Source of the DNA: Bacteroidota bacterium
GTDB lineage: Bacteria; Bacteroidota; Bacteroidia; Chitinophagales; Chitinophagaceae
DNA: 39,471 nucleotides
Direction of reading: 5' to 3'
Assembly (NCBI GenBank): GCA_013285855.1
Contig: JABDGW010000024.1
Span: 1-39,471, forward strand
The stretch's first letter is position 1. Each line of letters opens with the position of its first letter. The notes under the pieces are model-generated. The model was given only the letters and a program-made list of their open reading frames with translations, was not told where the DNA came from and did not search any database. Positions 1-11,201 of this stretch are shown piece after piece. Both the position numbers and the translations under genes were made by a program.

Positions 1-581
1 AAAAATGTCCAGCCATTTTCGTCTGCTAAATCTTCTACACTTTCTGTTATCAGCATTATAAGTTCCCGGTCAATTTTATCTAAAGATTTTGCTTCAGTTT
101 TAGGTTTGCTTTTAGTTGTAGTGGTCATTTCTATTGTTACGGCAGGTTCAGGTTTTAGTATTTCAATATAGATGAATTTATCACAGGCTGTAATAAATGG
201 TTTAGGTGTTTTCTTTTCGCCAAACCCAAATACTTTCATTCCTGCTTCCCTTAATCTTATTGCTAACCTGGTAAAGTCACTGTCGCTGGAAACAATACAG
301 AAACCATCAACTTTTCCGGAGTATAAAATATCCATTGCATCAATTATTAATGCACTGTCACTTGAATTTTTTCCTGTGGTATAACTGTATTGTTGAATTG
401 GCGTGATTGCGTTTTCAAGCAAAACATTTTTCCATCCGCCAACAGTAGGTTTTGTCCAATCCGCATAAATTCTTTTTATAGTTGGCGTACCATCTTTGGC
501 AATTTCTTCAAGCATCTCCTTGATGTTTGCGTAAGGCACATTATCAGCATCAATTAAGACTGCAAGTCTTTCTTCTTTCAT
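1..581 (-). CDS. NYN-domain protein with start of a C-terminal OST-HTH/LOTUS-like region (partial, runs off left edge)
   Basis: The reading frame is open from the ATG at 581 to the window edge, giving 193 residues with the C-terminus missing. The N-terminus LAVLIDADNVP (acidic D11, D13), the central SSDSALIIDAMD (D75, D81, D84) and VSSDSDF (D100, D102) are the acidic clusters of the NYN/LabA (DUF88) PIN-like fold, a metal-dependent ribonuclease fold. After about residue 140 comes a Thr/Lys-rich linker, then from about 167 a helix-like segment ending in ADENGWTF, which looks like the start of an OST-HTH/LOTUS RNA-binding domain; the rest is outside the window. The likely product is a cytoplasmic RNA-processing protein, but the substrate cannot be inferred. 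It is transcribed away from the ABC operon at 760. Confidence 0.85.
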   Translation of the reverse strand, partial: MKEERLAVLIDADNVPYANIKEMLEEIAKDGTPTIKRIYADWTKPTVGGWKNVLLENAITPIQQYSYTTGKNSSDSALIIDAMDILYSGKVDGFCIVSSDSDFTRLAIRLREAGMKVFGFGEKKTPKPFITACDKFIYIEILKPEPAVTIEMTTTTKSKPKTEAKSLDKIDRELIMLITESVEDLADENGWTF

Positions 582-677: not shown

Positions 678-734
678 TGGACAATGAATACAATAAAAAT
701 AAATTTTTTTTTAAATAAAAGGCAGTAATATTGC

Positions 735-758
735 AGTGTACTACTTAACTAATACACT
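735..758 (+). promoter_or_regulatory. Candidate YtrA-type GntR operator overlapping the operon promoter
   Basis: AGTGTA (735-740) and TACACT (753-758) are exact inverted hexamers separated by 12 bases. Extending each arm to 12 bases keeps 10 of 12 positions complementary. The published Bacillus subtilis YtrA operator, as I recall it, is AGTGTA, 13 bp, TACACT. A YtrA-type regulator is encoded as the third gene of the operon that begins 2 bases downstream (ATG 760). A one-mismatch -7 element, TAATATTG at 726-733, would place the transcription start inside the palindrome, as expected for repression. The site also explains why the in-frame GTG at 736 is not the start. Confidence 0.6.
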
Positions 759-759
759 A

Positions 760-1599
760 ATGATAGAAGTTAAAAACTTATCCTTTGGTTATAAAAAAAG
801 AAATCTTTTATACAAAGATTTAAATCTCAAACTTGAGGCGGGAAGTATTTATGGATTACTTGGTAAAAACGGGGCAGGTAAATCTACGTTGCTTAAAAAT
901 TTTATCGGCTTGTTGTTTCCCACAGATGGTAATATTACTATAAATGGTTATGCTCCTAAAAAAAGATTGCCATCATTTTTGGAAACTATATATTTTATTC
1001 CTGAAGAAGTGTATGTGCCTGCTTTAACTATTAATGGATATAAAAATTTGTTCTCACCCTTTTATCCTTCGTTTAATGAAAAACAATTTTTCAGTTATCT
1101 TGAACAGTTAGATGTAAACGATAAAGCCAGGCTAAACACACTTTCATTTGGTCAGCAAAAAAAATTCATCATCGCATTTGCGCTGGCTTGCAATACGAAA
1201 GTTTTGTTGCTGGACGAACCTACCAATGGGCTTGATATTCCTTCTAAAATAGAATTTCGTAAACTGATTGCTTCCATATTTACTGATGATAAAATCATTT
1301 TTATTTCTACGCATCAAATACGTGACCTTGATAATTTAATTGACCGCGTAATTATAGTAGATAATGGCGAATTACTTCTAAGCGCTTCCATTAACGAGAT
1401 AGCGGATAAATTATGTTTTAAAACTGTGAGCGAAATTCCATCATCCGGTAAAATATTATATTCAGAAGATACATTAAAAGGGAAAGCCATAGTAATTGAA
1501 AATACAGAGCACGAAGACTCCAAAATAAACCTTGAATATTTATTTAATGCAGTAACAGAAAACCCTGTTATTGCCAAATCAATTTTTAATAATCAATAA
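760..1599 (+). CDS. ABC transporter ATP-binding protein (YtrB-like, GntR-linked)
   Basis: This is a 279-residue cytoplasmic ATPase that would energise the membrane partner encoded next. Walker A GLLGKNGAGKST lies around residues 33-43, signature LSFGQ at 128-132, Walker B VLLLDEP at about 148-154, followed by TNGLD, and the switch His in STHQ at 185. An upstream in-frame GTG at 736 would add eight residues (start MYYLTN), but it lies inside the operator palindrome and probably at the transcription start. ATG 760, which gives the standard MIEVKNLSFGY opening, is preferred. The stop is 6 bases before the permease gene. Architecture and neighbours match Ytr/Bcr-type export or defence ABC systems; the substrate is unknown. 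Confidence 0.92.
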   Translation: MIEVKNLSFGYKKRNLLYKDLNLKLEAGSIYGLLGKNGAGKSTLLKNFIGLLFPTDGNITINGYAPKKRLPSFLETIYFIPEEVYVPALTINGYKNLFSPFYPSFNEKQFFSYLEQLDVNDKARLNTLSFGQQKKFIIAFALACNTKVLLLDEPTNGLDIPSKIEFRKLIASIFTDDKIIFISTHQIRDLDNLIDRVIIVDNGELLLSASINEIADKLCFKTVSEIPSSGKILYSEDTLKGKAIVIENTEHEDSKINLEYLFNAVTENPVIAKSIFNNQ

Positions 1600-1605
1600 A
1601 GCAGT

Positions 1606-2400
1606 ATGAATAATGCATTCAATGCAAAAAGATTTGGAAAGCTTTTCAAAAAAACATTATTGGAAAGACCTGTACAAACGTTTGGATTTACAGGATTATC
1701 ACTTACGCTCGTTCTAATATTGTATGTTGTGGCAAAATCAATAACCGGTTTTAGCGCCGCACAAAACCTAAGTTTTATCTGGGGTCTTCCTATTGGCGGT
1801 TGTCTTTTAGCTTCAATTGTTTTCGGTTACTTTTCTTCTAATGCCAGCGGTGCATCTTTTTTAACGTTGCCCGCTTCCAATTTTGAAAAATGGCTATGTA
1901 GTGCTTTAATTGCCGGCATTTTATACCCTATAATTTTCTTACTATTTTACCGGGTTATGGATAGCAGTTTTGTATCTGTTTATCATCATCATTTAGATCC
2001 ATCTGCACCGTTTTATAAAGAGCAATATGAATCAGTTTATATCTTTAATTTCAACGGCATTGTTGCCTGGAAAGTTTATCCTACATTCTTTCTCTTAATG
2101 GGTATTATGATGTTGGGTACATTGTATTTTAATAAAATACCTTTTATAAAAACAGCTATTGGTATATGTGTTCTTATTATCGGTCTTATTGGATTGAACT
2201 GGCTGGTAGCTAAAATATTTTTTGGAAGTATTAGCGATGCAAGTATTTTTTATTCTGTAACTATACCTGTAGGTAAAGAAGAAGGTTCAATTGAATTGCC
2301 TGATCAAATTTCAAAGGTGTTTTTTTACGGCTTATGGTATATCATTCCTGCAATATTGTGGTTTTTGTCATTTACACGTTTGCGTGAGAAAGAATTTTAA
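1606..2400 (+). CDS. ABC transporter membrane protein (six-helix permease partner)
   Basis: The 264-residue protein is strongly hydrophobic, with about six predicted membrane segments: roughly residues 25-45, 58-75, 95-115, 155-172, 180-200 and 240-258. One loop, at about 118-150, carries HHHLDPSAPF. It sits 6 bases after the ATPase and 9 bases before the GntR gene, so it is almost certainly the transmembrane half of that ABC complex in the inner membrane. It resembles the uncharacterised membrane subunits that accompany YtrA-type regulators in Bacteroidota; I cannot assign a substrate. The C-terminal LREKEF is cytoplasmic in a simple six-helix model. Confidence 0.8.
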   Translation: MNNAFNAKRFGKLFKKTLLERPVQTFGFTGLSLTLVLILYVVAKSITGFSAAQNLSFIWGLPIGGCLLASIVFGYFSSNASGASFLTLPASNFEKWLCSALIAGILYPIIFLLFYRVMDSSFVSVYHHHLDPSAPFYKEQYESVYIFNFNGIVAWKVYPTFFLLMGIMMLGTLYFNKIPFIKTAIGICVLIIGLIGLNWLVAKIFFGSISDASIFYSVTIPVGKEEGSIELPDQISKVFFYGLWYIIPAILWFLSFTRLREKEF

Positions 2401-2409
2401 ATTATATGC

Positions 2410-2784
2410 ATGGAGTTTAAAGAGAACCCGGCGATTTATATACAAATAGCAGAATATGTATGCGAACAGATTCTATTAAAGAAATGGAAGTTGGGAGAAA
2501 AGATTATCAGCATAAGAGACCTGGCAGTGAATATGGAAGTAAACCCAAACACGGTGCAGAGAGCGTATGATTTTTTACAGCAACGCGATATTATCACCAA
2601 TAAAAGAGGCATAGGCTATTTTACAGAAGATGATGCAATGGATCGCATACTCAGTTTTAGGCGCGAACAATTTATAGAAAATGAACTGCCAGTATTTATG
2701 CGGAACATTTATCTTTTAAAAATGGATTTTAAAGAAATAAAAGCATTGTTCGATCAATTTGTAAAAGACAATTTTAAAAAATAA
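2410..2784 (+). CDS. GntR-family transcriptional regulator, YtrA subfamily
   Basis: At 124 residues it has the size of the YtrA subfamily: an N-terminal winged helix-turn-helix and only a short C-terminal helical dimerisation tail instead of a ligand domain. The wHTH reads IYIQIAEYVCEQI, then KLGEKIISIRDLAVNMEVNPNTVQRAYDFLQQRDII (residues about 25-60), with the hallmark SIRDLA and NPNTVQRAY motifs. An overlapping ATG at 2406 reads into a stop after four codons, so 2410 is the start. It is expected to repress its own operon through the AGTGTA/TACACT palindrome at 735-758. YtrA in Bacillus responds to cell-wall antibiotics; the inducer here is unknown. Confidence 0.93.
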   Translation: MEFKENPAIYIQIAEYVCEQILLKKWKLGEKIISIRDLAVNMEVNPNTVQRAYDFLQQRDIITNKRGIGYFTEDDAMDRILSFRREQFIENELPVFMRNIYLLKMDFKEIKALFDQFVKDNFKK

Positions 2785-2787
2785 GTT

Positions 2788-3606
2788 ATGAAGTTTACAT
2801 CAAAAATATTATTAACCTTACTAATCATATTGATCGGCGCGTTAATGTCTTCTAACATTATTTTAAAAAATGAATATGATAAAATTGATAAAACTGATAT
2901 TTACTGGACCTACGAAAATATATTACAGCAACCTTTTAAATATTTAAAGATAACCGGCGGGAACGGCACCAGAATTGCTTTTGAGCAAAGCCCGAAATAT
3001 TCTGTAAGAATTCTCCAGGAATGGAAAAGGTATCATAATGGTGAAATAAAAACACATGTAAGTAATGATACACTGTTTATAAATTTTGATTTTGTCCCGG
3101 CAAATCAATATGAAATATTCTGGATGAAAAACACAACTTCTGTTCGCATCTTTTCGCCTGAACTTTTATCTGTTGATGGCTATAACACAAATTTTGAAAT
3201 GTTTAAGTTAAAGCAAAAAAGCATAAGCGTGAACATGACTGGTAAATCAAACTTTGAAGTAGAAAGTATGATACCTGCTTTGGATTCACTGAATATTTCC
3301 GAAAAAGATTCTTCAGAAATTGTTTTTGAAATGTCGCCGGATTATAAAACTGCGCCGTCAATAGCTGAACCAAAAGTTACCAAATTCAAAACCAGCAACG
3401 AAGGCACTGGTACTTTTGTACAATCATCTTCACCAATAAAAAGCAAAGAAGCAATAACCATAAATTCAGTAAAAGCAGATTTACAGGGTTATACAATACT
3501 TGATCTTGGTCATGCACAAATACAAACCTTGCAACTGCATATTGCGGATAGTTCAGCAATTGTGCTTTCCGGCGGAGCTTTGAAGAAAGCTAATAAACAG
3601 TTTTAA
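2788..3606 (+). CDS. Membrane-anchored beta-rich protein (DUF2807/GIN-like), unknown function
   Basis: An N-terminal hydrophobic segment (residues about 6-26) anchors or exports a 245-residue domain of short alternating strands rich in Asn, Ser and Thr, such as LKITGGNGTRIAFEQSP, SVDGYNT and SVNMTGKSNFEVES. This pattern is typical of the right-handed beta-helix 'putative auto-transporter adhesin head' (DUF2807, GIN) family. I make that match by pattern only. It starts 3 bases after the GntR stop and so belongs to the GntR/ABC operon as its last gene. It probably acts on the periplasmic side, perhaps as an envelope sensor or accessory of the ABC system; that is inference. Confidence 0.75.
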   Translation: MKFTSKILLTLLIILIGALMSSNIILKNEYDKIDKTDIYWTYENILQQPFKYLKITGGNGTRIAFEQSPKYSVRILQEWKRYHNGEIKTHVSNDTLFINFDFVPANQYEIFWMKNTTSVRIFSPELLSVDGYNTNFEMFKLKQKSISVNMTGKSNFEVESMIPALDSLNISEKDSSEIVFEMSPDYKTAPSIAEPKVTKFKTSNEGTGTFVQSSSPIKSKEAITINSVKADLQGYTILDLGHAQIQTLQLHIADSSAIVLSGGALKKANKQF

Positions 3607-3760: not shown

Positions 3761-6700
3761 TTATACTACTTGCTTTCTATTCTTATACATCATCCTTATA
3801 AATGTTGGCAACACAACCAGCAACAACGGCAATGCAATAATAAATCCACCGATAACGGCGATAGCTAATGGCTGGTGCAATTGTGCACCGGTGCCAATGC
3901 CTAACGCTATTGGCATCAATGCAATAATAGCACCCAGTGCCGTCATTAATTTTGGACGAAGACGCGTGGAGATGGCATAGATAACAGAGCCGTCTGCATC
4001 GTTGCTTTCTTTATATGATTCTTTAAACTGGAGAAAGGTGAAGATGGCATTCTCGCCAATAATGCCGACGATCATTATCAAGCCTGTGTAACTGCCCACA
4101 TTAAGCGGCGTGCCGGTAAAATATAATGCCATAAAACTGCCTGCAATGCCGAGCATAGCAACGAGTAAAATAATGAGTGCAATGCGGTAATCGCGAAACA
4201 TAAAAAGTATTACGCCAAACACCAGCAGGCTTGATGTGATGAGTATGATGAGCAGTTCATGAAACGATTGCTGCTGATCCGCATACGCGCCGCCATATTC
4301 AATGCTGTAACCCTGTGGCAATGCAATTTTTGTAGAGACCTGTTGTTGTATTTCTTTTATAGCGCTGCCAAGATCGCGGTTATCAAGCCGCGCTTCCACC
4401 ACGCCGATGTTTTGCATGTCTTCACGTTGTATCTCTGCTTCACCTTTATTCAATTCTACATCTGCAAGCGATACAATAGATTTCAACTGGCCATTCGGTA
4501 AAAAAATCTGCATCCGTTTCATCTCGTCAAGACTGCGTGTGCTGTTGCCCGCATACATGATCCGCACGTCGGTTTGCTGGTCTTTATCATACACACTGCC
4601 TGCAACATTTCCTTCAAGCGCTGTTTGCAATTGCGCCTGAAAATTGGATGGCGTAATGCCAAACTGCGCAAGATTTGTATAGTTAGGCAACACGTTAATG
4701 GTTGGCCCGGTAACCGTGATGCCATCAAATACATCAGCCGTACCGTTTACATTTGAAACAACGTCTGCTACCTGCTTTGAAAGAGTATGCAATGTATTTT
4801 CATCGTTGCCAAAAATTTTTACTTCAATAGGTTGAACAGAAGTCATAAGATCGCCGAGCATATCGCCTATCACCTGGCCGAAATCCACGCGCAGGGCAGG
4901 TTGCGTGCTTTGAATGCGTGTGCGGATATCTGAAGAAACTTCATCGGTGCTGCGGCTCCGGTTCTTTTTTAATTGAATTAAATAATCGCCGGTATTGGGT
5001 TCAGTGATGAAGAAACCCATCTGCGTTCCGGTGCGCCTTGAATAGGCTTCCACTTCAGGAACTTTTACAATTTCTTTTTCAACCGCCTGCAGCATGCGGT
5101 CTGTTTCCGCAAGCGATGTACCCGGCGGTGATGTATAATCAAGCACAATACTTCCTTCATCCATCTCGGGCAAAAAACCTGTTTGCAAATTTGGATAGAT
5201 AAGAATGATGGCAACAATCAAGGCAATCAAAAAAATAATGCTGATGTATGAACGATGTATAAAGAACGAAACCCAGCGTTGATTTTTTACAGCGTGAGTT
5301 GTATTCTTTGCGCTTCGTGCTTTCTGCTTTTTATCTTTTGAAAACAATAAATAAATAACCGGCAACGCAAGCCATGTAACAAAAAATGAACATACTAACG
5401 TTATCAGCATGGTGTTGGTGAGCACTTTAAAATAAGCGCCGGCAACACCGCTCATTAATTTGAATGGAAGAAAAATTACAATAGTGCTTAAAGACGAACT
5501 CACCATTGCAGGAAACAAATATTTTATTGCTTTCTGCACTAATGTTACAGATGGTTCGCCAGGATATTCTTCATGCGTTCGGTGAATTTGCTCAACAACA
5601 ACTATGGCATCATCTATTATTAAACCAATAGCTGCAGCGATGGCGCCAAGCGTCATAATGTTGAGCGTTTGCCCGGTTGCATACAACACAATTAATGTAA
5701 GAAATAATGTAACCGGAATGGTAACAAGAATAACACTGCTTGCTTTAAATGAACGAAGGAAAATTATTGCAACAATTATCGCAAGCACAAGACCAATCCA
5801 TAAACTATCGGTAACACTTTTAACAGCGTCGTTCACAAAATCTGCCTGTATATAATAGGGTTTGATGGTAACATCTTTCGGCAAAATTTTTTGTAAATCA
5901 TTTACCTGTTTTGTCATCTGATTTGAAACATCAATCAGATTTGCATTAGGTTGTTTGATTATGGCAAGCAATAAACCTTCATGCCCGTTTGCATTAATCT
6001 TTACATATTCTTTTGCCTGGTTAATGCTTACATCAGCAATATCTTTTAATAAAGTGATACGCTTGTTATTGTTGCTCACCACAATGTTTTGCAATTGTTG
6101 CAACGAACTCACCGATGCGTCGGTAATAGTCAAATACATCTGCCTGTAATCATTCAGGTAGCCGTTGGATTGTATGATATTATTTTGTGCGATAACAGCG
6201 CTTACTGCATCGGGTGTAATGCCTAATGCATTCATCTTTTGCTGGTTCAAAATCACATCATATTCTTTGGTTTTACCACCAATCACCCGCACTTCAGAAA
6301 CGCCTGCAACCCTTGACAGGTAAGGCTTTGCAGTGTACATTGCCAGCATCTTCATTTCAATCGGCGACCGAGAATGGCTTTCCATTGTATAACCCATTAC
6401 TGGTAAAATAGATGGGTTCATTCGTTCAACGGTTATGTTTATACCTGCAGGTAATGTGTTTGCTATTTCGCCAATTTTTGCCTGAATACGCCCTTCCGCC
6501 AAATCAACATCTGCATTCCAGTTTAAGAACGCTGAAAGCTCGCAACTGCCGCGGCTGGTGATGCTGCGAATGGTTTGCAGATCCGGAACTTGCTTTACTG
6601 CATTTTCAAGTTGCCTTGTTACAGTAATCATCATCTTATCAACCGGCTGCTGCCCTGCATCTGCAATAATTTTTATTTTAGGAAAAGTGATCTCAGGGAA

Positions 6701-6802
6701 TAATGCAGTTTGCATTTTACTGTATGCAAATGCGCCGCCCAGCAGGATGATAACGATGAGAACGGTGATGGGGTTTTTATATGTAAGAAAAAAATTACGC
6801 AT
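3761..6802 (-). CDS. RND-family efflux pump, inner-membrane permease
   Basis: A 1013-residue proton-driven pump subunit of standard RND length (about 1000-1050) with two repeats of six helices and two large periplasmic loops. Helix 1 is ITVLIVIILLGGAFAY; helix 4 carries IGLIIDDAIVVVEQ with the proton-relay pair D397/D398 equivalent to AcrB D407/D408; the second half ends in hydrophobic helices and a KNRKQVV tail. The frame extends upstream to GTG 6838, but MRNFFLTYKNPITV from ATG 6802 gives the usual RND N-terminus, and the upstream bases look like a common intergenic repeat. With the adaptor and TolC-like genes upstream it forms a tripartite pump. Metal or drug specificity cannot be read. 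Confidence 0.94.
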   Translation of the reverse strand: MRNFFLTYKNPITVLIVIILLGGAFAYSKMQTALFPEITFPKIKIIADAGQQPVDKMMITVTRQLENAVKQVPDLQTIRSITSRGSCELSAFLNWNADVDLAEGRIQAKIGEIANTLPAGINITVERMNPSILPVMGYTMESHSRSPIEMKMLAMYTAKPYLSRVAGVSEVRVIGGKTKEYDVILNQQKMNALGITPDAVSAVIAQNNIIQSNGYLNDYRQMYLTITDASVSSLQQLQNIVVSNNNKRITLLKDIADVSINQAKEYVKINANGHEGLLLAIIKQPNANLIDVSNQMTKQVNDLQKILPKDVTIKPYYIQADFVNDAVKSVTDSLWIGLVLAIIVAIIFLRSFKASSVILVTIPVTLFLTLIVLYATGQTLNIMTLGAIAAAIGLIIDDAIVVVEQIHRTHEEYPGEPSVTLVQKAIKYLFPAMVSSSLSTIVIFLPFKLMSGVAGAYFKVLTNTMLITLVCSFFVTWLALPVIYLLFSKDKKQKARSAKNTTHAVKNQRWVSFFIHRSYISIIFLIALIVAIILIYPNLQTGFLPEMDEGSIVLDYTSPPGTSLAETDRMLQAVEKEIVKVPEVEAYSRRTGTQMGFFITEPNTGDYLIQLKKNRSRSTDEVSSDIRTRIQSTQPALRVDFGQVIGDMLGDLMTSVQPIEVKIFGNDENTLHTLSKQVADVVSNVNGTADVFDGITVTGPTINVLPNYTNLAQFGITPSNFQAQLQTALEGNVAGSVYDKDQQTDVRIMYAGNSTRSLDEMKRMQIFLPNGQLKSIVSLADVELNKGEAEIQREDMQNIGVVEARLDNRDLGSAIKEIQQQVSTKIALPQGYSIEYGGAYADQQQSFHELLIILITSSLLVFGVILFMFRDYRIALIILLVAMLGIAGSFMALYFTGTPLNVGSYTGLIMIVGIIGENAIFTFLQFKESYKESNDADGSVIYAISTRLRPKLMTALGAIIALMPIALGIGTGAQLHQPLAIAVIGGFIIALPLLLVVLPTFIRMMYKNRKQVV

Positions 6803-6854
6803 TGCACTATAAGTATTAAACCACAAAGACACTAACACACCAAGGGATTTCGGA

Positions 6855-6935
6855 CGTCATGTCGACGATAGAAGACATCTCTTGAAACTTTAAGTTACAG
6901 GAAATCATGAGACCTCTCTTATCGTCGAGATGACG
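6855..6935. repeat. Long imperfect inverted repeat (REP/MITE-like) between adaptor and RND genes
   Basis: CGTCATGTCGACGATA at 6855-6870 is complementary to 6920-6935 at 15 of 16 positions. Pairing continues inward with mismatches (GACATCTCTTGA against the complement of TCATGAGACCTC), leaving a small AT-rich core. The GC-rich ends containing TCGACGA differ from the AT-rich neighbourhood. It interrupts an otherwise close-packed efflux operon, so it may be an inserted dispersed palindrome, and its hairpin could attenuate expression of the pump gene downstream on the minus strand. Confidence 0.65.
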
Positions 6936-6992
6936 ATTTGAGTTATCACTTAATTAAACATCATTAATGTGTAAAATCTTATGTTCAAAAAA

Positions 6993-7928
6993 TTATTCAT
7001 GTTTAGTTATATTAATTTTCGCCGTATCACTCAATCCATAATTGCCTGTAAGAATAATTCTGTCTGAATCGCCTAACGCCGGGTTAATTATCTGCACGCT
7101 ATTACCCGTTTCAATTCCTTTATTCACATCAGTTTTTACAGCAACACTGTCATTCAACAGTTTCATTATCCAGAATTCAGTTTGCTCTTCATTACTTAAC
7201 ACAGCAGCTTTCGGAAGTAAGGTTGCGTTTTCAATTTGCTGTTTTATCAGCTCTACTTTTGCAACAAGGTTTTCTGGTATCAATTTATCTGTATTCACTT
7301 TAAGGATATACCGTTGTGTTTGTGCAATAGAATCAAGCGTTGGCAATTCCGATTGAATATAACCGTTTAACAAAGTGCTGTCTGAAAGATGCAGCAATAA
7401 CATTTTATTCTTAGGCAAAAAAGATTTTAGTTCATAAGGCAGGTCAAGTAAAAAGGCAAAGCTTGATTTATCTGTTATTTCAGCAAGCTGATCGCCATCC
7501 TGCACATAATCTCCTGCGATATAAGTAAGCTGTGTAATATAACCGTTGATTGGAGATCTTATTGTTGAAGTACCGTCAAAATGCAGCGACGAATCAAGAT
7601 TATTTATTGTATTTCCCAATGCAACAGCTTCTTTTGTTTTTATAGTAAAAAGTATTTTTCCCTTAGTTACATATTGGCCCAACTGAATGTTTGATGTTTC
7701 CAGGTAACCAATAGCATTTGCTTTTACAAAAGTTTTTAATGTAAATGCAGAAGTTGCATTTAATTCAACAATCTCATTAATGTTGCTGTGACCCGGATAT
7801 GTAATAGTTACAGGTGTAATTGCGTTTTCAGGAGAAATGTCTTCGTTGGCATTATCAGTATTGCTTTTACATGATTGAATTATGTAAGCAAGAAAAATCA
7901 ACAAGAATATGTTTAAAAATTTATTCAT
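6993..7928 (-). CDS. Efflux RND periplasmic adaptor (membrane fusion protein), lipoprotein
   Basis: A 311-residue lipoprotein: hydrophobic N-terminus followed by IIQSC with lipobox Cys20. After the signal comes a short beta/lipoyl-like region: VKANAIGYLETSNIQLGQYV and GKILFTIKTKE, then RSPINGYITQLTYIAGDYV, the paired half-lipoyl motifs of HlyD-type adaptors. The helical hairpin between the halves is very short (NTINNLDSSLHFDGTS), so the protein is smaller than typical adaptors of about 350-400 residues. Its start overlaps the tolC-like stop by one base (TAATG), indicating coupled translation. It would bridge the RND pump and the outer-membrane channel. Confidence 0.85.
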   Translation of the reverse strand: MNKFLNIFLLIFLAYIIQSCKSNTDNANEDISPENAITPVTITYPGHSNINEIVELNATSAFTLKTFVKANAIGYLETSNIQLGQYVTKGKILFTIKTKEAVALGNTINNLDSSLHFDGTSTIRSPINGYITQLTYIAGDYVQDGDQLAEITDKSSFAFLLDLPYELKSFLPKNKMLLLHLSDSTLLNGYIQSELPTLDSIAQTQRYILKVNTDKLIPENLVAKVELIKQQIENATLLPKAAVLSNEEQTEFWIMKLLNDSVAVKTDVNKGIETGNSVQIINPALGDSDRIILTGNYGLSDTAKINITKHE

Positions 7929-9190
7929 TATTTATTCCAGTAATTTATTTGTGTAACGATTTGAAATTGCTTTACGATATTTTGCGTGATAGTGTTTTGT
8001 GCATTCAGGTAATTGCTGATGGCAATAATATAATCTGCAATACGCACGTCTCCGGTTATTAATAATCTCCTGTTAGCATCCATTAATGTATGCACGTATT
8101 TAAGCTGGTCGTTTGTTTCATTAATAATTTGACTGGTTATTTGCAGTTGTTGCGAAAGCTGCGCAATCTGTTGCCGGTATTGGCTTGAATAAAAATCCCG
8201 GTTGCTGGTGCGTGTTTGTTCAAGAATATTTAATCGCTGGTATTGCAGCTTTCGCTGGTTACCATCATAAATAGGAATAGTAAGATTAAGTGCGGCACCC
8301 AAACCAAAGTTTTTATATGGAGTATATGTTAACGATGAAACATAACCGCCGTCTGCAGTAAAACTTAATTTCGGTTTATACGCAAATGCAACTTGCTCCG
8401 ATGCATTTTTCAGCAACAAGCTATCTGTTGTAAACTTCCTGTAAAAAATTGAATTAGTATATTCCGGTAATTGCTGCAGCGCAATACGTGGCGAATCAAG
8501 CGGCGTAAAAGCAGTATCAACTAAGCCGCATAAATAATTTAGTGTTGCATAATCGTTCTGATATTGTTGTTTCGCCAGGGTTATAGTAAGATGCTGCTGT
8601 TGCAGCGTTACCAAAAAAGTTAGGTAATCTGTTTGACGATATACGCTTGCCTGGGTAAGCTTCTTTAAAATAGTGTCTTCTTCTGAAAGCAAATTGTAAA
8701 CTTCATTATTAAAATTATATTGCCGCCAGCTTCCGTACGCGGCAATATAAGCAGCGATGATGGTGCGCCGCAAATCCTGTTCTGTTATCTTTCCTGCAAT
8801 TGATAAAGAATCGTTCAGCAACTGTATGCCATTGAATTGAATATTTAAATTTCTTTTGCCAACAAAAGTTTTTGTTGCGCTTACCTGTTCATTAAAGTTG
8901 CGTATGTTGGTAATAATTTCATCATATCCATAACCGTTTATAACAGGCGCATAATAATTATTGCTGATGCCGCTAACCTGCGGTTTGTATTGTGCAAGAA
9001 TGCGTAAACTATCTATTTTGTTTAAAAGAATACTGTTGTTTACTTCTTTTAATAGCGGGCTGTTTTGAATGCCTTGCTGAAGAAAGTAATCAAGGTTTTT
9101 CTGTTGTGCTGATAACCAAACAGGCTGAACAAGCAAAATGCAGATGAGAATTATTTTTATGCAGCTTAAAAACGGGTTAAATAATTTCAT
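7928..9190 (-). CDS. TolC-family outer-membrane efflux protein
   Basis: 420 residues with an N-terminal hydrophobic export signal ending near WLSAQ (about residue 28). The mature part has the alternating long-helix and strand pattern of TolC: NLDYFLQQGIQNSPLLKEVNN near the mature N-terminus, helical stretches rich in Gln, a strand segment LGAALNLTIPIYDGNQRKLQYQRL near residue 300, which is the usual PxxxGxR-like landmark, and a C-terminal long helix. It is first of the pump trio in transcription order and is separated from the histidine kinase gene by 77 bases. A one-mismatch -7-like element in that gap could give some independent transcription. Confidence 0.88.
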   Translation of the reverse strand: MKLFNPFLSCIKIILICILLVQPVWLSAQQKNLDYFLQQGIQNSPLLKEVNNSILLNKIDSLRILAQYKPQVSGISNNYYAPVINGYGYDEIITNIRNFNEQVSATKTFVGKRNLNIQFNGIQLLNDSLSIAGKITEQDLRRTIIAAYIAAYGSWRQYNFNNEVYNLLSEEDTILKKLTQASVYRQTDYLTFLVTLQQQHLTITLAKQQYQNDYATLNYLCGLVDTAFTPLDSPRIALQQLPEYTNSIFYRKFTTDSLLLKNASEQVAFAYKPKLSFTADGGYVSSLTYTPYKNFGLGAALNLTIPIYDGNQRKLQYQRLNILEQTRTSNRDFYSSQYRQQIAQLSQQLQITSQIINETNDQLKYVHTLMDANRRLLITGDVRIADYIIAISNYLNAQNTITQNIVKQFQIVTQINYWNK

Positions 9191-9267
9191 TACTATAATA
9201 ATAAAACGATTGCCTTTATCTTACCTGCAAAATAAGAAATTGATTTTGAAGTAAACCTGAACTTATA

Positions 9268-10524
9268 TTACCAGGCTATAGAAAAAGTATGCAGGTTAGG
9301 CAACTGAAAATTATATGTACAGTTATAACCTGAAACCTGGCATATTTGCTGAATAACAGATAATCCAAGCCCATGATTTTCTGATGAATTATGCTGCTTT
9401 GAAAATCTTTTATACAATTGCTTTTCATCAATTGCATAATTAATGCCAGTGTTGGTTATTTGCAGTGTATTGTTTAATAAAATATTTATTGTTCCGTTTT
9501 TTATATTATGTTTTGTAGCATTACTTAAAAGATTATTCAGCAAAATTTCTATGAGATACGCATTACCTGTAATTTCTTTATCTGAAAGATTTATTGCTGT
9601 AACAATATCGCGGTTTTTCCATAGCTCGTTAAACTGGTTTATTTTAGTTTGAAGTAATTCTTTCAAATTAATACTTGTTTGCTCGCTGAATTGTTTGTTC
9701 TCAATTTTCGCAAGCAATAATAAAGAATGATTGAGCTTGCTTAAACCCTGCACTGCATTATAAGCACTTTGAATAGCGTTGCTTTCGTTCTCAGATAATT
9801 TTTCATTCTGAATAAGTATATCAAGTTTGGATTGTATTACTGCAAGCGGCGTTTGCAATTCATGCGAAGCGTTTTCGGTAAACTCTTTCAATGTTTGATA
9901 ATCCTGCTGCGCTTTGCTTAATGCATTGTTCAGCGTTGTATTTAAATAAATAAACTCATCAATATCTGTATTGCTAAAATTTATTTTTTCTGTTTTATTT
10001 AAACTGAATTGCTGCATAGTTTGCAGTGTGCTGTAAAAAGGTTTCCATAACCTGCGTAATACAAACCGGTTAATAAAAAATGTAACGATAAGAATCAACG
10101 AAATTATAGTCAGCGTAATTGCAATTATTGTTTGAATAAGTTCATCTGCACCTTCTAACGATTTGCTTACGCTTACCAGGTACCAAATATTATTTACATC
10201 AACAGTAAATTCAATTGTACGCCGCAGTTCTGTTTCATGTTCCGCTTTATCGTATACTTTATTGGTAAAAATTTTATTGTTTTGGCTGGTTGGTTTTTCA
10301 ACCGGTTTATAAGTAGTGTACTGATCGCGCACTTCAATCACAGTTGGCAAATGATTAAACTGATGAACATAAGTAACCACTTCGTTCTTTTCAATTTTTA
10401 AATCTTCATCAACCTGGCTGATAATTACATAACGCAGCAGTATAGAAAAAGCTCCGCAGCCAAGTAAAAAAATTATTACGGTTGATACTACATTAATGCG
10501 GTTATATTTTGTAAACAGTTTCAT
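9268..10524 (-). CDS. Sensor histidine kinase, envelope two-component system
   Basis: 418 residues. Membrane helices at about 11-34 and 133-153 flank a periplasmic sensor loop of about 100 residues. A HAMP-like linker follows, then the H-box ENASHELQTPLAV with phospho-acceptor His221, N-box LLNNLLSNATKHN near 329-340, and G2 box NHGLGLS at about 383-389. The usual DxGxG G1 motif is degenerate (ITNTGINYAID), seen in some Bacteroidota kinases. Its ATG overlaps the stop of the response regulator by 4 bases. With the pump genes immediately downstream it probably controls efflux or envelope homeostasis; the stimulus is unknown. Confidence 0.93.
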   Translation of the reverse strand: MKLFTKYNRINVVSTVIIFLLGCGAFSILLRYVIISQVDEDLKIEKNEVVTYVHQFNHLPTVIEVRDQYTTYKPVEKPTSQNNKIFTNKVYDKAEHETELRRTIEFTVDVNNIWYLVSVSKSLEGADELIQTIIAITLTIISLILIVTFFINRFVLRRLWKPFYSTLQTMQQFSLNKTEKINFSNTDIDEFIYLNTTLNNALSKAQQDYQTLKEFTENASHELQTPLAVIQSKLDILIQNEKLSENESNAIQSAYNAVQGLSKLNHSLLLLAKIENKQFSEQTSINLKELLQTKINQFNELWKNRDIVTAINLSDKEITGNAYLIEILLNNLLSNATKHNIKNGTINILLNNTLQITNTGINYAIDEKQLYKRFSKQHNSSENHGLGLSVIQQICQVSGYNCTYNFQLPNLHTFSIAW

Positions 10525-11201
10525 CTGGGCAGGCTGAATTTATAACCCATGCCATAAACAGACCTTATATAATCCGGTGAACCAAATTGCAGCAATTTTT
10601 TGCGAAGGTTTTTTATATGCGTATAAATAAAATCGTAGTTATTGGCAAGATCCATATTATCACCCCACAAATGTTCTGCAATGGCAGATTTGCTGATGAC
10701 TTTATTTTTATTGCTGATAAAATACAACAGCAGTTCATATTCTTTTTTTGTGAGGTCTAATTCTTTACCATTAACAAAAGTTTGCTTTGCATCAAGATGG
10801 ATCTGCAGGTCATCAAACACAATTGTATTATTTCCCTCAAAAGATTTTCTGCGGATGATTGCTGCTACTCTTGCACCTAATTCTGGTAAATGAAATGGTT
10901 TGGTAAGATAATCGTCGGCACCTGCTTTTAATCCGTAAATTTTATCATCTAACGAATTTTTTGCAGAAATAATGATAACACCATCTGCTTTATTATTTCT
11001 TTTTAATTCTTTTAAAATATTTAAGCCGTTGCCACTTGGCAACGTTATATCAAGAACAATACAGGCATAATCATACAAAGAAATCTTTTCTAATGCAGAA
11101 TCAAAATCATAAGCGGTTTCGGTAATAAACTGTTCGCCGGATAAATACTGGCAAATGCTTTTTGAAAGCTCTTTTTCGTCCTCTATTATCAGCACTTTCA
11201 T
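10521..11201 (-). CDS. OmpR-family response regulator
   Basis: 226 residues with a receiver domain (acidic E7/D8, phospho-acceptor D51 in IVLDITLPSGNGL, K81 in IISAKNS) followed by a DNA-binding winged helix (KELDLTKKEYELLLYF, then IYTHIKNLRKKL and VYGMGYKF at the end), as in OmpR/CusR types. It is the partner of the kinase encoded next and overlaps both neighbours by 4 bases (ATGA), upstream with the TerC-family gene and downstream with the kinase. Likely targets are its own operon and the RND trio. Confidence 0.95.
   Translation of the reverse strand: MKVLIIEDEKELSKSICQYLSGEQFITETAYDFDSALEKISLYDYACIVLDITLPSGNGLNILKELKRNNKADGVIIISAKNSLDDKIYGLKAGADDYLTKPFHLPELGARVAAIIRRKSFEGNNTIVFDDLQIHLDAKQTFVNGKELDLTKKEYELLLYFISNKNKVISKSAIAEHLWGDNMDLANNYDFIYTHIKNLRKKLLQFGSPDYIRSVYGMGYKFSLPR

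Follow-up and report, generated by a model that had tools for sequence, protein, structure and literature searches.

The closest described relatives of the element analysed here are the operators of the YtrA subfamily of GntR regulators. In this subfamily the C-terminal domain consists of two helices, about 50 residues in length (PMC4494728). The operators are long palindromes whose GT and AC lie well away from the centre (PMC4494728, PMC6746942), and the typical motif spans 24 bp (PMC6746942). In B. subtilis the YtrA site is AGTGTA-13bp-TACACT, with ytrGABCDEF and ywoBCD as targets (PMC8060467). The 36-bp footprint of PmtR in S. aureus overlaps its transcription start (PMC5080381). A survey of 229 YtrA-subfamily regulators includes none from Bacteroidetes (PMC4494728).

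The window, by which we mean the whole stretch of DNA that was analysed (39,471 bases), contains a candidate operator of this kind in front of an ABC transporter operon. The relevant features are the following:

3-581, minus strand: gene of an NYN-domain protein, incomplete at the window edge and transcribed away from the operon (PF01936, E 1.1e-39)
726-733, plus strand: candidate -7 box TAATATTG, with 5 of the 6 letters of TAnnTTTG and the same offset in orthologs
735-758, no strand assigned: candidate operator palindrome of 24 bp, AGTGTACTACTTAACTAATACACT, seen in the sequence and recurring in orthologous operons
760-1599, plus strand: ABC transporter ATP-binding protein (PF00005, E 4.2e-27), start codon 1 base after the operator
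1606-2400, plus strand: putative membrane permease partner of 264 aa, an ORF that is hydrophobic by inspection
2410-2784, plus strand: putative YtrA-subfamily GntR regulator of 124 aa (PF00392, E 3.2e-8; AlphaFold2 model; best Foldseek match 3ic7)
2788-3606, plus strand: DUF2807 / head-GIN domain protein of 272 aa (PF10988, E 1.6e-10)

The palindrome AGTGTACTACTTAACTAATACACT reads AGTGTA-N12-TACACT. A first-pass annotation of this DNA had described these hexamers with 12 bases between them, symmetry at 10 of 12 arm positions, a place directly at the start of the operon and a GntR protein of YtrA size encoded within it. All of this is borne out: the complementary arm positions are 1-6, 8, 9, 11 and 12, the ATG of the ABC gene lies at 760, and the 124-aa protein fits the YtrA subfamily by its predicted fold, size and gene context. 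The GntR gene is the third of the operon, not the first. For the permease-like ORF there is no Pfam or NCBIfam match at E 0.001, and the DUF2807 gene, probably the last of the operon, begins 3 bases past the GntR stop codon.

Two neighbouring features are worth recording. The space that separates the NYN gene from the operator promoter contains a perfect 8-bp GC-rich inverted repeat (654-677; GCATCGTC, an 8-base loop CCTGCGGA, then GACGATGC), which may act as a hairpin or bind a protein. The repeat is not dispersed: its core gives one match in the window with up to 3 mismatches allowed, and a related pattern gives one in the genome with up to 1 mismatch. On the other side of the operon, on the minus strand, an efflux-type cluster (3761-11201) encodes a 1025-aa RND-like transporter, a 311-aa periplasmic adaptor-like protein and a 420-aa outer-membrane-factor-like protein, together with a pair resembling a histidine kinase and a response regulator (9268-11201); all these names were given by inspection.

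Taken alone, the hexamer pair is weak evidence. It has one exact match in the window and one in the source genome assembly (3.15 Mb, 67% complete). If up to 2 mismatches are allowed, there are 2 places in the window versus 1.32 expected, and 99 in the genome versus 80 for a reversed-pattern control. Since the pair on its own is hardly enriched, the significance of the palindrome rests on its position and its conservation.

To assess conservation, we looked for regulator orthologs in 394 genomes from the family of the window, of which 100 gave a match at E 1e-12 or better, and in 395 genomes of its phylum, 36 of which gave a match; the family and phylum of these sets are inferred from 20 named relative loci (Chitinophagaceae and other Bacteroidota). 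Of the 102 places from the family search, we fetched 67 in addition to that of the window, leaving 34; from the phylum search we fetched all 33 new places. The window, the 20 named loci and the 100 fetched stretches make 121 loci. An ABC match lies upstream of the GntR gene in 116 of them, as is characteristic of YtrA-subfamily operons; four of the other five have fewer than 700 bases upstream, and only L075 lacks the match with 3,200 bases available. After dropping five near-duplicates (L103, L104, L105, L108, L109) and eight loci with no ABC start or fewer than 150 bases upstream (L050, L053, L059, L075, L107, L133, L138, L151), we counted 108 non-redundant loci. Because near relatives are correlated, the number of independent events is below 108.

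At least 10 of the 12 hexamer letters are present at spacer 12 in 104 of the 108 loci (searched from -130 to +20 of the ABC start), and all 12 in 44. By dinucleotide shuffles only 1.05 loci would be expected to reach 10, and 7 of 1055 control windows within the same operons do so. In these 104 loci the palindrome spans 24 bp and has GT and AC at its outer ends. With the hexamers present at the same position in orthologous operons, the conservation claimed for the site is not refuted. A wider search, to -300, raises the count to 105, with L080, L084 and L088 still below 10 letters. In L086 the site stands 221 bases before an aligned ABC start position that reads TCA; as this is no start codon, the gene start is uncertain there. 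The aligned position is ATG in 105 of the 108 loci. L058 has an intact right half-site and a damaged left one. Even where the GntR ortholog is less than 48% identical, the site is kept in 34 of 37 loci (wider search), and all of the 105 sites retain the G at operator position 4 and the C at position 21.

The site is present in several named hosts, among them Pinibacter (L049), Ginsengibacter (L056), Ferruginibacter (L047, L048, L057) and Fulvivirga (L064), and a Bacteroidales MAG (L063) carries it with 10 of 12 letters. Beyond the 108 loci, two plasmids have the site 15 or 16 bases ahead of the annotated ABC gene, one of Spirosoma with 11 of 12 letters and one of Parabacteroides with 12 of 12. 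On the Parabacteroides plasmid (L204, 4378-7140) the gene after GntR encodes 135 aa with no family match and is followed by an outer-membrane barrel gene (OMP_b-brl_3), which means that the partner downstream of GntR can differ from the DUF2807 protein of the window. Spacer 17 gives another peak, with 10 or more letters in 39 of the 108 loci; judged by inspection, the TTTGT of the -7 box and the first operator base probably imitate AGTGTA there. As a separate observation, the inner pair 10/15 is complementary in 9 of 105 sites, compared to 29 predicted by independence, with C-C, T-C and G-G as the commonest combinations. Symmetry thus seems to be avoided at these positions; the relatedness of the sequences may explain this.

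The promoter adds a fixed point of reference. In Bacteroidota the -7 consensus is TAnnTTTG, and the commonest leader length in B. thetaiotaomicron is 23 (PMC7366714). Relative to the operator, a TAnnTTTG with at least 5 of 6 letters begins at -9 in 67 of 105 loci (34 of them perfect) and at each other offset tried in at most 8, and TTTGG (at least 4 of 5 letters) peaks at -32, in 41 of 105 loci. In the window no clear -33 box is seen upstream of 726-733. Since the -7 box keeps a fixed spacing to the operator that follows it, the expected transcription start lies within the operator, as the first-pass annotation had also proposed. By this register transcription should begin in the operator's left half, leaving a leader of roughly 20 bases in the window's branch. 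Among the 108 loci the operator stands at different distances from the ABC start (0 or 1 base in 23, 12 bases in 30), but the -7 box stays in the same position relative to it; this fits a repressor that blocks the polymerase, not an element acting on translation.

The site also travels with the regulator gene. Exact matches to an extended motif, GTGTAYTA-N6-TARTACAC, occur in 77 of the 394 family genomes, one site in each, and those to its reversed-pattern control in none. A regulator ortholog is present in 72 of these 77 genomes (Fisher p 5e-49, a value that ignores the kinship of relatives). The underlying table assumes a single set of 394 genomes for both searches; the handles agree, and 274 match-free genomes are unlisted in the ortholog search. 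Among the 28 of 100 ortholog-bearing genomes that lack the exact motif, several fetched loci show one-letter variants (e.g., L144, L148, L154) and in others a contig ends near the gene (e.g., L107, L133, L138). As for the five motif genomes without ortholog, the contig ends inside the ABC gene in two (G077, G110), and in the fetched stretches of the other three (G028, G270, G405) the motif stands without a regulator or ABC match. The sites in these three genomes are at L201 2782, L198 3616 and L202 3386; the one in L202 is 92 bases from a contig end, and by eye the one in L201 lies in a G+C-rich, repetitive-looking stretch. At exact stringency we found no further regulon members, either with the hexamer pair in the source genome or with the extended motif in the 77 genomes. 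A very small regulon is therefore predicted, so the inducer can be sought with a single reporter.

The regulator itself looks like a member of the YtrA subfamily. Its N-terminal GntR winged helix-turn-helix matches PF00392 with 33.6 bits (cut-off 27). The AlphaFold2 model, made with 61 orthologs in the alignment, has a mean pLDDT of 93.6 and predicts helices 9-22, 35-42 and 46-58 with strands 62-65 and 69-72 for the helix-turn-helix and wing, followed by a reduced C-terminal domain of two helices (77-102 and 107-121). In Foldseek 3ic7 from B. thetaiotaomicron ranks first, ahead of 4r1h, 2ek5/2du9, 3tqn, 3neu and 3by6, and the model aligns over 113-122 columns with 2ek5_A/C, 2du9, 3neu and 4r1h. 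The 108 orthologs measure 115 to 133 residues. Residues invariant in the 61-ortholog alignment include R36, N47, T48, R66, G67 and G69; the first three lie in the helix-turn-helix, which agrees with a proposal of Arg-G and Asn-A contacts for this family (PMC4494728).

Could the palindrome have arisen by chance and be conserved only through its overlap with promoter and start-codon sequence? Promoter overlap does constrain flanking letters, and the near-absence of enrichment at 2 mismatches (99 versus 80) points the same way. Yet the half-sites carry up to 2.9 bits of information, far above the 0.74 bits reached by the promoter boxes, in 105 of the 108 loci (including L084, which scores only 8) the ABC start follows the best site at a distance of 0 to 30 bases, and at spacer 13 not one of the 108 loci reaches 10 of 12 letters. 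This explanation is strongly disfavoured, and we see next to no chance that it is right. Slightly more credit, though still very little, is due to the idea that the inverted repeat forms a hairpin in the leader RNA, immediately before the start codon of the ABC gene, and controls how that gene is translated. Inverted repeats are able to pair in RNA, and in the 23 loci mentioned above the repeat stands 0 or 1 base before that codon. We rejected the idea because arm pairing is not kept across the 105 sites: pair 7/18 is complementary in 55 (plus 12 G-U) and pair 10/15 in only 9 (plus 15 G-U), and what is conserved is the sequence of each half. In addition, with the -7 box ending 1 base upstream, a large part of the left half is not expected to be transcribed, and the repeat is less constant in its distance to the start codon than in its distance to the -7 box.

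It is similarly improbable that the palindrome serves another DNA-binding protein and not the GntR protein of its operon. The link between palindrome and GntR protein is a predicted one, which leaves room for such a protein. Against it stand the co-occurrence of motif and ortholog (72 of 77 genomes), the resemblance of the site to the B. subtilis YtrA operator (PMC8060467) and the fact that the source genome, 67% complete, has two GntR-family matches, one of them of YtrA size.

We are thus left, with high confidence, with the palindrome as the operator of the putative YtrA-subfamily GntR repressor encoded in the same operon, which would repress the ABC transporter operon and with it its own synthesis. 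As closely similar sites occupy the same place in most related operons, the palindrome is very probably the operon's on/off switch. From the observed site, its conservation, fixed spacing, promoter register and co-occurrence with the regulator, and from the predicted fold of the latter, we infer dimer binding, repression, the transcription start and an inducer. A homodimer of the third-gene regulator would read both AGTGTA half-sites; their conserved letters, G at position 4 and C at position 21, are separated by 17 bp, which is under two turns of the helix. As the site starts 1 base after the -7 box and covers the expected transcription start, the bound repressor would block RNA polymerase and keep the ABC-permease-GntR-DUF2807 operon off, its own gene included. 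Release would come from an inducer, perhaps a molecule that the transporter handles and that is membrane-active or related to envelope stress.

How far the element extends beyond Bacteroidota was judged from 11 plasmid loci out of 133 matching records (first 60 listed): 2 from Bacteroidota, 8 from Bacillota and 1 from Streptomyces. Outside Bacteroidota, sites were scored within 120 bases upstream of the GntR gene against 500 shuffles. Sites with 10 or 11 of 12 letters occur in Acetoanaerobium (spacer 13; score reached by 14 of 500 shuffles), Priestia (spacer 11; 0 of 500), Lactococcus (spacer 13; 6 of 500) and Subdoligranulum (spacer 12; 9 of 500). The Paenibacillus plasmid site AGTGTACTATTTAACTAGTACAGA (spacer 12, 10 of 12 letters, score reached by 21 of 500 shuffles) matches the L117 site in the first 22 of 24 letters; it comes from a separate reading, the automatic scan having chosen another place of equal score. 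Within the same 120 bases, Macrococcoides, S. salivarius, Parageobacillus and Streptomyces have no site better than shuffles.

The first-pass annotation had given a spacer of 13 for the Bacillus YtrA site, in agreement with PMC8060467, and had suggested a Firmicutes-type operator conserved in a Bacteroidota. The conservation stands (104 of 108 loci); the Firmicutes label does not, since the spacer is 12, not 13, and spacers on Bacillota plasmids are 11, 12 or 13, so the element is not specifically Bacillus-type. To judge by these loci, it looks like a YtrA-subfamily operator that two or more phyla have in common and whose spacer is fixed at 12 in Bacteroidota. A bolder reading, to which we give an even chance, is that a regulator-operator pair has been kept nearly letter for letter in one transporter operon from Bacteroidota into Bacillota. 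In Bacteroidota it would be fused in a fixed register to the phylum's -7 box, and in the window's branch operator, transcription start, whole leader and start codon would fall within about 30 bases.

Among solved structures the closest relative is 3ic7, a B. thetaiotaomicron GntR-family protein (phmmer E 6.3e-29 over residues 1-119; Foldseek 42% identity), known as a structure only and annotated as a putative regulator. A search of the open-licence PubMed Central literature returned no paper naming 3IC7, and a search there of titles and abstract openings returned no Bacteroidota YtrA operator among the matches listed. The candidate operator suggests a target for relatives of 3ic7, and it is a widely conserved, directly testable one for a subfamily with no Bacteroidetes member in the survey of PMC4494728.

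The YtrA of S. acidocaldarius is likewise a YtrA-type autorepressor whose palindrome covers the transcription start; its core motif has 14 bp, compared to 24 bp here, and it has a shorter helix (PMC6746942). In S. aureus, PmtR is a YtrA-subfamily repressor of the ABC exporter operon pmt (PMC5080381). PmtA is the best NCBIfam match of our ABC protein and the regulator also matches PmtR (NF047563), but the scores are far below the cut-offs (135.8 of 350 bits for PmtA; 44.8 bits versus a curated 200 for PmtR), and there is no reason to expect the same export substrate as that of S. aureus Pmt. With B. subtilis YtrA, a GntR-family negative regulator, the window shares the hexamers and an ABC operon that includes the regulator's own gene (PMC8060467). 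It differs from the B. subtilis operator proper in its spacer (12 versus 13) and from that system in having the regulator gene third, a DUF2807 partner gene, and one exact extended site per genome instead of two target operons (PMC8060467). This kind of switch is already known from other bacteria, and the window's site is a very well conserved further case.
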